From IMG/VR virus record IMGVR_UViG_3300006751_000139, positions 1-23,936 of that record: a stretch of DNA of 23,936 nt. One strand, given 5' to 3'. This document shows, piece by piece, positions 6,237 through 23,674 of this stretch. This stretch comes from a virus. Position 1 is the stretch's first letter, and each line of letters begins with the position of its first letter. The position numbers and the translations under genes were made by a program. The notes under the pieces were generated by a model, which did no database searches, was not told the origin of the DNA, and was given only the letters and a program-made list of their open reading frames with translations.

Positions 6237-8489
6237 TTATTTTTTCTGTTTATCAACACTAATCTTTTTCTTTTCTAGTGCTAATTCTTTTTTTACTATA
6301 TCTACGGTATCTTTCATACGACCTCGTAGAATTTTTTGTTCTGCTACGGTTTCTGTTAATTGCTTATCTACAATCTTAGAACCTTCATTAATTTTATCTT
6401 TAATTCCAGCTTGAATTACTTGTCTTTCCAATGTTTCATTATCTCTTTGCATTTCTTTCATTTGCCCTTCCATTGATTCTATCTGTTGTTGCATTTGAGA
6501 GTAAATACTCTTTCTTTGAACTATTGCCTTTTTATTTCTAATATCGGTTTGTTCTAACATTGCTATATCATCTATTAATCCAGCTTGGAACCATCTAAAA
6601 TACTCTTCTAATAATGCCCATCTATTGACAGGTTGAGTCGAACCAGCTACAATTCTAATATCAAATTTATTTGTTTGATAATCATTATACCTTTGAATAA
6701 CTTCTCCAAAACTATTATACATAGGAATATTAATAGAAACTTCTTGTACTTCGCCTTCTCCTGCTCCAGCTTCAGGTTGAACTATCCTAAATACTTTTTG
6801 GCTTGTATATGTAAATTGAGCAATTTCTTTAAATACTTTACCCATATGCTCTAATGATGGTTCAACAACATTATTTACCCATTGTCTAATTCTTCTTGTT
6901 CCATATTCATCCATTGCTAACATACCACGATAAGTTTCGTGACTTTGGTCTCCTACTCCTTGCATACTTGATGCAACTCCACTAATATATTCAATATCTT
7001 GTTTTCCTGTTTGAGTTACTGTATAAAAAGCATTGTTAATAGGTAAAGGTTGAACGGGAGTTGGAACATCAAATCCTTGTCTATATTTTAATAAAGCACC
7101 AGGACTGCTTGAATATTTTTCCCACTCTTCTTCATCAACACTACCCTCAGTATATAGCCATCTAAGATTAGAAGCTAAATTTGCATTATGTAGCATAATT
7201 TGATGTGATTTATTTATTTCTCTTTGTTTACCAATCATTGGCAATACTGCGCTCATTGGGTATGGAGTATTTGTATGACCATATACTATTGGAATAATAG
7301 GATACTCTTCTATAGGAAGAATAGTTTCATATAAAAACATATCTCCAGCTGAAGCACACATTTTAATTTGAGTTTTAAAAAAATCTATAGTTTCTATAAT
7401 ATTTTTAGCATAAGCTTCTACTTTTGCTAAATTTTCAAAGTCTTTTCTAGGAATTACATTTTGAGTAGTTTTTGTTTGAGCTTTTACCAATTCAGCTTCC
7501 ATTATCATTTGTTGTTCTTGTATTTTTTGCTCTGCTTCTTTTTGCGCTTTTAACAATTCAACTTGCATTCTTTCAGGAAGTATTTCTCCTTCATTTACTA
7601 ATGCTTGCAATTCTACTTCTTTTTCTTTTAAAGAAACTTGTATATCTGTAGCTATTATTTCAACTTTTTCTTTAGCTTCTATTTTAATCAATTCTAATTC
7701 TTTTTCATTGGGAGGTTGTTTTAACCATACATTTACATAAGGAACTTTCTCTTTTGTATACACTTCATAAAAATCTACAATTTCATCTTGTTCTCCTTGC
7801 AATGTATATGCTTCATATTCTAAATCTCCTGGCTGTACATTTTCTGAGTCGTGAATATCTCTTTTTGAGTATTGTTTACTTTCTGTTGAGCCACTTGCTC
7901 TTACAATTTTTTTCTTAAATTGAGGAAATAAATTAATAAGAGTTGTTTTTGATAAATTCTTTTGAACAATAATATAACTTGCATCACGAAATAAAAAATC
8001 TCTACTTTGAGGGTCTACATAAATATCATAAGGGTCTACAGAATTAAATATAACTTCTCCCGTTCCTCTATCGGCATTAGGGTCTACATCTATTTTAAAA
8101 TATCCAACACCTTTTACAAGAGAATCTTGAATAACCTGACTAAATAAACTTTTTCCACTAGATAAATGCCAACAATATTCAGCAATTGAACTATGAACAT
8201 GAGCTATATCAGAATCGCTTCCATCTGCTCCAATTGCTTGCCATCTAGGATTATTGGCTGTAACAAAATATTTCATAATTTCTATAGCTGGGGTTATACG
8301 ATTAATAATAAAATCTGGCATTCCTCCTTCACGTAAATCTTCCTTTTCTTGAGCAGATAATTGTTCATTTAAATAGAAATCCATGCTTTTTTGAGAATCA
8401 ACAAACCATTTTTTCCTATAGTAACTATTCGCTTTTTGGAATAATTGTTTATTTATATCAGCTTTATTTTTTCTTCCTCTTTTTGCCAT
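6237..8489 (-). CDS. Portal protein, P22-like large type (750 aa)
   Basis: The dodecameric ring at one head vertex through which DNA enters and leaves. The N-terminal part has portal-type segments: DFIINRITPAIEIMKYF (about 59-75), then IAEYCWHLS and DSLVKGVGYFKIDVDP (about 122-137), then the hallmark VDPYDIYVDPQSRDF (151-165). Residues about 262-345 form a long charged heptad-like stretch rich in Glu, Lys and Gln, an apparent coiled-coil insertion in the middle of the fold. The last 110 residues are again coiled-coil, like the barrel of P22-type portals. The length of 750 residues is close to the large P22 class. It starts one base after the lysis gene stop, with AAGGGAT as ribosome site. Confidence 0.88.
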   Translation of the reverse strand: MAKRGRKNKADINKQLFQKANSYYRKKWFVDSQKSMDFYLNEQLSAQEKEDLREGGMPDFIINRITPAIEIMKYFVTANNPRWQAIGADGSDSDIAHVHSSIAEYCWHLSSGKSLFSQVIQDSLVKGVGYFKIDVDPNADRGTGEVIFNSVDPYDIYVDPQSRDFLFRDASYIIVQKNLSKTTLINLFPQFKKKIVRASGSTESKQYSKRDIHDSENVQPGDLEYEAYTLQGEQDEIVDFYEVYTKEKVPYVNVWLKQPPNEKELELIKIEAKEKVEIIATDIQVSLKEKEVELQALVNEGEILPERMQVELLKAQKEAEQKIQEQQMIMEAELVKAQTKTTQNVIPRKDFENLAKVEAYAKNIIETIDFFKTQIKMCASAGDMFLYETILPIEEYPIIPIVYGHTNTPYPMSAVLPMIGKQREINKSHQIMLHNANLASNLRWLYTEGSVDEEEWEKYSSSPGALLKYRQGFDVPTPVQPLPINNAFYTVTQTGKQDIEYISGVASSMQGVGDQSHETYRGMLAMDEYGTRRIRQWVNNVVEPSLEHMGKVFKEIAQFTYTSQKVFRIVQPEAGAGEGEVQEVSINIPMYNSFGEVIQRYNDYQTNKFDIRIVAGSTQPVNRWALLEEYFRWFQAGLIDDIAMLEQTDIRNKKAIVQRKSIYSQMQQQIESMEGQMKEMQRDNETLERQVIQAGIKDKINEGSKIVDKQLTETVAEQKILRGRMKDTVDIVKKELALEKKKISVDKQKK

Positions 8490-14678: not shown

Positions 14679-15020
14679 TATTAGTTAAGTTGTAGTTGTA
14701 GAAACTAGACAAAGCAACTCTAAATAAAGATGTCTAGGGGTTTAAATAATAAAGTATGTTTAAGCCACTCATTAAATGTGCTTTAGCGTTTAAACTTAAA
14801 ATATCATAAGATAGAGAATATATAATCAGTTATTTTATGATTATATGGAATGAAGTTACGCAATTTGAAATAGAGTGGAATTTCAGTACTTGATAGATAG
14901 TATTGTCTATAATACTATTGCGTGTATATAGTTTAATTGTTATATAAAACAATATTATCTATTAAGTATAAATATAATCCTTTCTTAAATAAAAGAGATT
15001 AAGAGTCAACTAATAAGAAA
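14679..15020 (+). ncRNA. Hairpin-dense non-coding region, possibly the same RNA
   Basis: There is no credible gene here. Perfect or near-perfect hairpins follow one another: CTAGACA/TGTCTAG (14705-14737), an interrupted GTTTAA-GC-CAC stem (14758-14795), ATATAATC/GATTATAT (14820-14846), TGAAAT/ATTTCA (14866-14885), ATAGTATT/AATACTAT (14897-14918) and ATTGTT/AACAAT (14936-14953). Two have 8 bp with short loops. The DNA is very AT-rich, so some are expected by chance, but the density is high. With the preceding domain this may be one RNA of about 430-480 bases. Confidence 0.4.
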
Positions 15021-15719: not shown

Positions 15720-15816
15720 TAAGGGAGACTTTTATTATCAGAGTTCGAGAGAGATGGTTGTCATCAACTTTATTTAGAACAAAGAGAAAAAGACGCTTTA
15801 CCTCGTGTCTCCCTTA
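15720..15816 (+). ncRNA. Candidate RNA closed by TAAGGGAGAC/GTCTCCCTTA
   Basis: The ten-base arms at 15720-15729 and 15807-15816 are perfectly complementary. CGAG/CTCG, GTTC/GAAC (15743/15777) and a GATG/CATC or GTTG/CAAC hairpin can form inside. No reading frame of any length runs through it. The closing arms repeat those of the compact hairpin at 15230-15254, which argues for a shared recognition or processing feature. Confidence 0.55.
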
Positions 15817-15823
15817 TGATTAA

Positions 15824-16130
15824 TTAGATAGTATAGAAAGTCAATAGTTGAGCGTTAGATAAAATGAATTATGTGTAGATGATAGATTTTGTCATACAGA
15901 TTAAGCATAATACGTATTTGTCAAGTTGGTTTTGGTAACAAGACCTATCCGAGCGAAAACGTGAACTTGTATAAAATCTTTAATACAAGCATTATTATAT
16001 TTATACTAGTATAATGAGCGGAAATAGCAAGGCGGCATTAATCAAATAAGCACACATGGATGTTAGTCGCACTAACAGCATGAGGTTAAGAGCCTGTTGT
16101 GAGATTAGTTTCACAAGTTATGCTATCTAA
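15824..16130 (+). ncRNA. Candidate large structured RNA (about 307 nt)
   Basis: A 12 bp helix with one U-G pair joins 15824-15835 to 16119-16130. Within it are GGTTTTG-GTAA-CAAGACC (15928-15945; a 7 bp arm with one U-G pair and a GNRA loop), CTTGTAT/ATACAAG (15966-15989), CATTAT/ATAATG (15990-16016, containing the palindrome TTATACTAGTATAA), TGTTAGT/ACTAACA around CGC (16061-16077) and TTGTGA/TCACAA (16097-16116). GAGCGAAA and GAGCGGAAA recur inside. The GNRA loop and the density of perfect arms are typical of large folded RNAs. I recognise no known class and see no group I or II intron core. Confidence 0.65.
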
Positions 16131-16179: not shown

Positions 16180-16809
16180 ATGAAAAAATGGAAATATAAA
16201 GTAAAAGAAGGTCCTAATAAAACTTCAAAACATTATCAAGCATTTATGAAACAATTAAGAGCATACTTAAGATTTATAGATAAAAATGGTAGATTACCAC
16301 AACAAAGTAATAGTACTAATAAAAGACCAATAGCAGAATCAAGATTATATACTTGGGCATCACAAGTAAAGAACCAAGCAAGAAAAAGAACATTGAGTCA
16401 ATGGAAATATGATTTAATGATTCAGATTCCTGGATTTATATGGAATAAACAAAGTAATGTATGGTTTACTAAGTTCTTTGAATTAAAAGAATATATTGAA
16501 AAATATGGTGAAGCTCCTACACAATTAAGATGTGAAAGATTTCCTGAAAGATTGGAAAATGGTAAATGGATTTCACCTGTAGATGCTAAATTACATAGTT
16601 TATCTGTATGGTGTATGCAACAAAGAAAACTTTACAGAGAAGATTCTCTTTTACCTGATAGACTTAATCATTTAATTGATATTGATTTTAATTTTGAACC
16701 ACACAATGGTCCTATAGGTAGAAAAAATGGAATTATTCCAGGAATGGATACTGAAGAAAATATTCAATACTTATTAAAAAGAAAGGTGAAAGCTACATGG
16801 AAATATTAG
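16180..16809 (+). CDS. Two helicase-associated (HA) domain repeats (209 aa)
   Basis: Two copies of the helicase-associated domain pattern are visible. The first is at about 20-89: FMKQLRAYLRFIDKNGRLPQ, then LYTWASQVKNQARKR and IPGFIW. The second is at about 95-173: WFTKFFELKEYIEKYGEAPT, then LHSLSVWCMQQRKLYRED and LIDIDFNFE. In known proteins these three-helix repeats follow helicase cores and bind DNA. Here there is no helicase motif, so the repeats stand alone. AGAGG precedes the ATG, directly after the large RNA candidate. A DNA- or RNA-binding accessory is the likely role; an RNA-related partner is speculation. Confidence 0.72.
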   Translation: MKKWKYKVKEGPNKTSKHYQAFMKQLRAYLRFIDKNGRLPQQSNSTNKRPIAESRLYTWASQVKNQARKRTLSQWKYDLMIQIPGFIWNKQSNVWFTKFFELKEYIEKYGEAPTQLRCERFPERLENGKWISPVDAKLHSLSVWCMQQRKLYREDSLLPDRLNHLIDIDFNFEPHNGPIGRKNGIIPGMDTEENIQYLLKRKVKATWKY

Positions 16810-23210: not shown

Positions 23211-23260
23211 GTTCCTAAAAGGAGATAGCTTCTTAATAAAGGTTCCTGAGTGGCTTAAAT

Positions 23261-23335
23261 CAGAATAGAGGTGGAAGGTTCGGAACTTTAGGAAAACCGA
23301 TTAAATCATTCCAACAAAGCCTCACCTCAGTTCTG
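23261..23335 (+). ncRNA. RNA motif copy 1 (CAGAAUAGAGG / CUCAGUUCUG)
   Basis: CAGAA-TA-GAGGTG (23261-23273) pairs with CACCTC-AG-TTCTG (23323-23335), leaving a two-by-two internal loop. An inner AAGGTT-CGG-AACTTT hairpin and TGGAA/TTCCA can form. The same outer motif recurs at 23583. Bases 23211-23260 upstream show only a repeated AGGTTCCT and no gene. Confidence 0.62.
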
Positions 23336-23350
23336 AAACTTGCTAGTAAA

Positions 23351-23576: not shown

Positions 23577-23582
23577 TAACAT

Positions 23583-23650
23583 CAGAATAGAGGTAGGTGA
23601 TGTAGGAAATAATTAGTTCTATTAATTTAGGACATCCTATCTCAGTTCTG
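23583..23650 (+). ncRNA. RNA motif copy 2 (CAGAAUAGAGG / CUCAGUUCUG)
   Basis: CAGAA-TA-GAGGTAGG (23583-23597) pairs with CCTATCTC-AG-TTCTG (23636-23650). The outer helix and TA/AG internal loop equal those of copy 1, but the stem beyond GAGG differs in both strands and still pairs (one G-U). GATGT/ACATC and AATTA/TAATT extend the arm. It ends 24 bases before the next start codon. Confidence 0.62.
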
Positions 23651-23674
23651 AAAACTTAAAAAGGAGAAAAAAAT

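Follow-up and report, generated by a model that had tools for sequence, protein, structure and literature searches.

The window analysed here, the whole of a 23,936-nucleotide stretch of viral DNA (positions 1 to 23,936 of IMG/VR record IMGVR_UViG_3300006751_000139), contains a segment of about 300 bases, designated RNA-B, that lies upstream of a gene for an HA-domain protein. This locus raises the question of whether the segment gives rise to a folded RNA and, if so, whether that RNA serves the gene that follows it or forms a unit of its own. A preliminary description proposed a discrete RNA of about 300 bases with the HA protein as a possible partner. Its coordinates for the segment (Table 1) were correct, as was the absence of a reading frame, the longest stop-free stretch being 42 codons. 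No match to any Rfam family, including introns, ribozymes, riboswitches, HEARO, ROOL and others, was obtained for RNA-B at curated or relaxed thresholds.

The significance of the predicted fold was assessed by comparing its minimum free energy (MFE) with those of 100 dinucleotide shuffles. RNA-B folds at -77.3 kcal/mol, against -58.4 ± 4.7 kcal/mol for the shuffled sequences (z = -4.07), and 0 of the 100 shuffles did as well. In a fold scan across the window in 150-nt windows RNA-B is unremarkable, because the signal sits in a long-range helix. This closing helix, described earlier as 12 bp, is present; it comprises 13 bp if two wobbles and the U-A pair at its outer end are counted, with 12 in the MFE structure. 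The 7-bp arm capped by GUAA is likewise there, and the four further arms all appear in the MFE structure (15966-15972/15983-15989, 15990-15999/16007-16016, ~16060-16078, and 16097-16104/16109-16116). The segment encodes no protein and very probably yields a folded RNA instead.

Table 1. Coordinates of RNA-B, its parts, and neighbouring or related elements (window positions unless a locus, L number, is given).
Feature	Position	Strand	Evidence or remark
RNA-B, noncoding structured unit bounded by closing helix	15824-16130	+	Fold z -4.07, homologues, no frame, no Rfam match
Closing helix, 5' strand UUAGAUAGUAUAG	15824-15836	+	Pairs with 16118-16130; MFE; sequence in five copies and L013
Closing helix, 3' strand UUAUGCUAUCUAA	16118-16130	+	Pairs with 15824-15836
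Variable arm 2, ~66 nt	15855-15920	+	~31 nt of other sequence in L089/L090/L092
GNRA arm GGUUUUG-GUAA-CAAGACC, 7 bp (15928-15934/15939-15945)	15928-15945	+	MFE, conservation
Variable arm 4, two hairpins (15966-15989, 15990-16016)	15950-16028	+	Different hairpin in L089/L090/L092
Conserved 3' core: AAGGCGGCAUUAAUCAAAUAAGC, GUUAG/CUAAC hairpin, UUGUGA/UCACAA hairpin	16029-16117	+	Alignment of close copies
RNA-A, small structured RNA directly upstream of RNA-B (helix 15720-15729/15807-15816)	15720-15816	+	Covarying closing helix
HA-domain gene (PF03457), downstream of RNA-B	16180-16809	+	No consistent link to RNA-B
RNA-D, ~228-nt structured RNA	L084:3806-4034; L006:6211-6435; L018:5859-6085	+; -; -	Several pairs kept through changes
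Diverged GOLLD (RF02032), ~800 nt	L013:5159-5965	-	Also L010, L014, L085, L022, L007
RNA-C inserts, ~115-219 nt, ends TTAGATAG...CTATCTAA	At exonuclease gene stop codon		L006, L007, L013, L014
RNA-H cassettes, ends TCAGAATAGAGG...CCTCAGTTCTGA, unrelated interiors	23260-23336; 23582-23651		Second end set

Homologues of RNA-B were found in IMG/VR phage contigs: including the window there are five distinct close copies (window, L084, L089, L090 and L092) and a diverged one (L013), a sample of six contexts from one main phage group and one distant phage. Short exact patterns from RNA-B led to the copies in L089, L090 and L092 among viral contigs, while L084 was reached through a neighbour-gene search and its RNA-B was seen by blastn. 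The copies range from 235 to 316 nt, with fold z-scores of -4.0 (L090), -3.4 (L089), -2.1 (L092) and -1.9 (L084, with flanks). The diverged copy, from a sister phage, occupies the same slot and has the same ends (TTAGATAGTATA...TATACTATCTAA), with an nhmmer E-value of 0.089 over all loci. Its interior is mostly different and similarity beyond the ends barely exceeds chance, so that its relation to RNA-B rests on ends, position and weak profile similarity.

A wider end-to-end pattern scan of viral contigs recovered the known copies in L089, L090 and L092 together with L152, which is the L013 phage; its new matches lay mostly inside long open frames, were read as chance and were set aside. In blastn searches of 50,697 records of known phage isolates, two versions of RNA-B, RNA-D and the GOLLD-like element initially labelled RNA-E gave nothing significant, and weak Campylobacter phage matches (E 0.1) corresponded to a 36-nt AT-rich stretch. 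Among genome contigs of hosts, 46 stretches held the exact 17-mer of the GNRA arm, with no credible RNA-B around it. Close isolate relatives of the window's phage were looked for and none was found.

The close copies consist of a nearly invariant core, formed by the closing helix, the GNRA arm and the 3' third, and of arms 2 and 4, each of which exists in two unrelated versions. The 5' strand of the closing helix is invariant in the five copies, with a U-G to U-A change in L013. The GUAA loop and its stem are kept in 5 of 5, with a single U-G to U-A change in L090, and the 3' core of L084 carries a 9-nt insertion. The predicted fold of the middle of the interior is not the same across homologues. 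Variable arm 4 holds GAGCGAAA and GAGCGGAAA, which had been suggested as loop receptors or joining elements. That suggestion did not survive the comparison, as these sequences are not conserved: GAGCGAAA (15951) and GAGCGGAA (16016) are present in the window, are replaced by GAGTGAAA and GAACGGAAA in L084, and are absent from L089, L090 and L092. In L084 a C-G pair between GAGCGAAA and GAGCGGAAA may have been exchanged for U-A in a compensatory way, which is seen in one sequence only.

Covariation among homologues, which the preliminary description had named as a check, is found in part: the closing helix, in the form shared with the RNA-C inserts discussed below, changes compensatorily, while covariation within RNA-B proper is weak. 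The five close copies resemble one another too much for RNAalifold to recover more than a few compensatory changes, nearly all core pairs being invariant. Variable core columns numbered 6 of 111 paired and 8 of 62 unpaired positions, a difference that is not significant (p = 0.14), and two pairs of the last hairpin are broken in L092. Given this likeness and the non-significant substitution bias, the inner structure is supported more by folding energy and the closing helix than by covariation. RNA-B is nonetheless a real unit, as first observed, and homologues whose ends fall sharply at the closing helix, each in its own context, lend good support to the proposal of a discrete, folded RNA some 300 bases long.

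The boundaries of homology bear on what sort of unit this is. Between the window and L084, close agreement runs from the closing helix to slightly beyond its 3' end, after which the neighbours are unrelated. In L089, L090, L092 and L084 the common stretch starts about 15 bases upstream, at CTTTGATTTAAAGAA, and overall the homology ends at, or a few bases from, the closing helix. The copies in L090 and L092 are identical at 229 of 235 positions (97.4%) between unrelated immediate flanks, and L090 is a distant phage, its terminase and portal being 31% and 28% identical to those of the window. Besides RNA-B, blastn of the L090 and L092 loci matched only one 111-nt stretch (93%), largely another structured-RNA element, and one 57-nt scrap. 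Sharp ends and two arms swapped wholesale indicate that RNA-B behaves as an exchangeable noncoding cassette. The near identity of these two copies is evidence for exchange of such cassettes between phages, recent transfer and strong selection being indistinguishable here; the presence of RNA-B almost unchanged in phages with ~31% identical terminases implies either strong selection on the RNA itself or very recent exchange. Among the genes of the window's phage are those for a Sak-type annealing protein and a Cas4-like exonuclease, together with a match to Holliday-junction resolvases, and from these it seems that exchange probably proceeds by the phages' own annealing recombination at short homologies.

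The outer helix sequence of RNA-B (UUAGAUAG/CUAUCUAA) is also found, with changes that compensate one another, on unrelated inserts at other places. One such group is RNA-C, whose site 3' of the exonuclease gene is empty (a short spacer) in the window, L010 and L067, where a small hairpin with a compensated pair is found. Across the RNA-C and RNA-B helices the inner half changes compensatorily, with 89% of cells paired and the same reached in 0 of 500 shuffles; because the outer seven bases served to pick the rows, the evidence is independent only from pair 8 on. A second end set, TCAGAAYAGARGY...RCYTCAGTTCTGA, bounds eight inserts in five phages, again with compensated inner pairs. To this set belong the RNA-H cassettes, of which a tandem pair occurs in L088 and one nearly unchanged copy is common to L090 and L092. 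Non-Watson-Crick pairs near cassette ends are largely wobbles when the coding strand is read, a pattern more in keeping with RNA than with an inverted repeat in DNA. The occurrence of nearly identical RNA-B copies in phages that otherwise differ, for the most part at the position that GOLLD or further folded RNAs take in their relatives, suggests that phages swap folded RNAs like cassettes. A tentative extension, less likely than not, is a set of unrelated folded RNAs (RNA-B, RNA-C, RNA-H and others) that would use a few shared terminal helices (UUAGAUAG/CUAUCUAA; UCAGAAUAGAGG/CCUCAGUUCUGA) as common ends for excision or exchange, would stand in tandem between early genes, and would take the place of GOLLD, or stand beside it, at one fixed position.

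That slot lies between a conserved noncoding stretch (window ~14445-14515) and a variable gene, and it is filled with structured RNAs. The conserved stretch carries DnaA-box-like repeats (TGTGGATAA/TGTGTATAA/GGGGATAA) and is possibly the phage's replication origin. The partly overlapping noncoding stretch at 14509-14700, enclosed by long self-complementary ends (AACTACAATTGAGGTAAAGTAGTT / AACTACTTACC...TTGTAGTT), is possibly another structured RNA. In the slot, RNA-A comes first and is followed, depending on the phage, by RNA-B, RNA-D and/or GOLLD: RNA-B in the window, L089 and L092; RNA-B and RNA-D in L084; RNA-D alone in L005/L006, L008, L009/L067 and L018; RNA-B directly upstream of GOLLD in L013; and GOLLD without RNA-B in L007, L010, L014, L022 and L085. 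RNA-B occurs without RNA-A in L090, where a further structured stretch with a long closing helix (TTATTATTAGGTATC/GATACCTAATGATAA) lies directly 5' of it, just upstream of position 7484.

The closing helix of RNA-A covaries among homologues (e.g., L084:3393-3459), the pairing being reached in 0 of 500 shuffles, and its covariance model found 12 matches with E < 1e-8 at related loci. The window's RNA-A has a longer insert and scores nothing with this model. Its near-invariant UUUACCUC (window 15797-15804) is the exact complement of the GAGGUAAA Shine-Dalgarno sites of the surrounding region (e.g., 15402 and 16171), and RNA-A is possibly an anti-Shine-Dalgarno RNA. RNA-D, which has no match in Rfam, occupies the slot in phages without GOLLD, and its start, AATTAAAATACGGC, remains 3' of RNA-B in L092; remnants of this kind suggest gain and loss in the slot. 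RNA-E was rejected as a new giant RNA, as an Rfam E-value search identifies it as GOLLD. In the six contigs it scores 106-141 bits against a curated 150, with all 416 model positions matched and E of ~1e-31 to 1e-41, and an alignment of ~800 nt from four sequences has 59 doubly compensated pairs (0 of 500 shuffles). Since all 6 of 6 copies fall below the Rfam gathering score, standard annotation would miss them. Whole records with RNA-D, or with RNA-B and no GOLLD beside it in the slot, were searched for GOLLD and gave none; these records are fragments in which the slot is covered.

The main rival to an independent RNA is a general cis role, in which RNA-B would act on the early transcript as its leader, help to process or stabilise it, or antiterminate it in a put-like manner, whichever gene follows. 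RNA-B usually lies just upstream of a gene (within roughly 100 nt in the window, L089, L090 and L092) and in all cases shares its strand with the genes after it, and a terminator looked for after it in the window was not found. Against this, the next feature varies in every case: it is the HA gene in the window, RNA-D and then a gene of 186 aa in L084, GOLLD in L013, and other genes in L089, L090 and L092, so that no one kind of downstream gene is associated with RNA-B across the six contexts. The proposed partnership with the HA protein fails on the same ground, and HA-gene homologues occur without RNA-B in L007, L018 and L021-L023. Both the wholesale replacement of two arms and an identity of 97% between unrelated phages are unusual for a simple leader, and GOLLD, which uses the same slot, is described as an RNA that stands alone (PMC12286853). 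A cis role is thus considered unlikely.

The sharp ends, the unrelated flanks and the terminal inverted repeats (TTAGATAG...CTATCTAA) common to unrelated inserts recall MITE-like elements, as do the site behind the exonuclease gene, filled in some phages and empty in others, and the transfer between unrelated phages, so that the RNA fold could be a by-product of a mobile or recombination element acting at the DNA level. Such an origin is quite improbable: unlike MITE-like elements, all copies are oriented with the adjacent genes and share a conserved interior core, where the repeats of RNA-B mismatch the plus strand has G-U wobbles, and the inner part of the repeat changes compensatorily rather than being conserved like a protein site. 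Nor is a transposase seen nearby among the Pfam and PHROG matches listed, or a convincing target duplication, AAT flanking both sides in some copies only. That the fold arose by chance in intergenic DNA might be suggested by the AT-rich region and by coding stretches of the window that also yield some low z-scores; in view of the z of -4 with none of 100 shuffles as good, and of sharply bounded conservation in five contexts, this explanation is close to refuted.

The reading preferred here, with a probability of roughly 60%, is that RNA-B is a phage-encoded structured noncoding RNA and a unit of its own rather than the leader of a particular gene. Its independence of any one gene, its strand and direction, which match those of the adjacent early genes in every context seen, and the slot common with GOLLD make a stable, trans-acting RNA the best reading, and RNA-B is most likely a GOLLD-like phage RNA that acts on its own. 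It would be transcribed together with the early genes, and the long closing helix, by joining its ends, may mark or protect the unit during excision from a longer transcript. The folded RNA would then act in trans, probably on a host component, in a job that by analogy may resemble that of GOLLD in phages carrying GOLLD at the same place.

Among known structured RNAs, the manA and wcaG motifs of marine phages are also phage-carried and come largely from metagenomes (PMC2864571). Each of those motifs goes with certain kinds of downstream gene, whereas RNA-B has neither a consistent gene after it nor a match in Rfam. ROOL, which is present in phages too (PMC12286853), and OLE resemble RNA-B in being structured and free of protein-coding content; both are large, while RNA-B is much smaller and, in contrast to these RNAs, no tRNA genes were found in the scanned loci. 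The GOLLD model, which covers a conserved 3' domain of 416 positions, gives no match to RNA-B at E up to 5, to the window as a whole with E up to 0.5, or to the 52.6-kb contig of the same phage. GOLLD and RNA-B differ in size (~800 nt versus 235-316 nt, 307 in the window) and have no sequence relation. GOLLD reportedly rises during lysis, forms RNA cages and binds ribosomes in pull-downs (PMC12286853). Like RNA-B, whose phage context is shown by portal and terminase genes, GOLLD is phage-encoded, noncoding and extensively folded, and it occupies the same slot in sister phages; a fixed slot of a single phage lineage in which GOLLD, RNA-B and RNA-D replace or accompany one another provides natural swaps for asking what such RNAs do.
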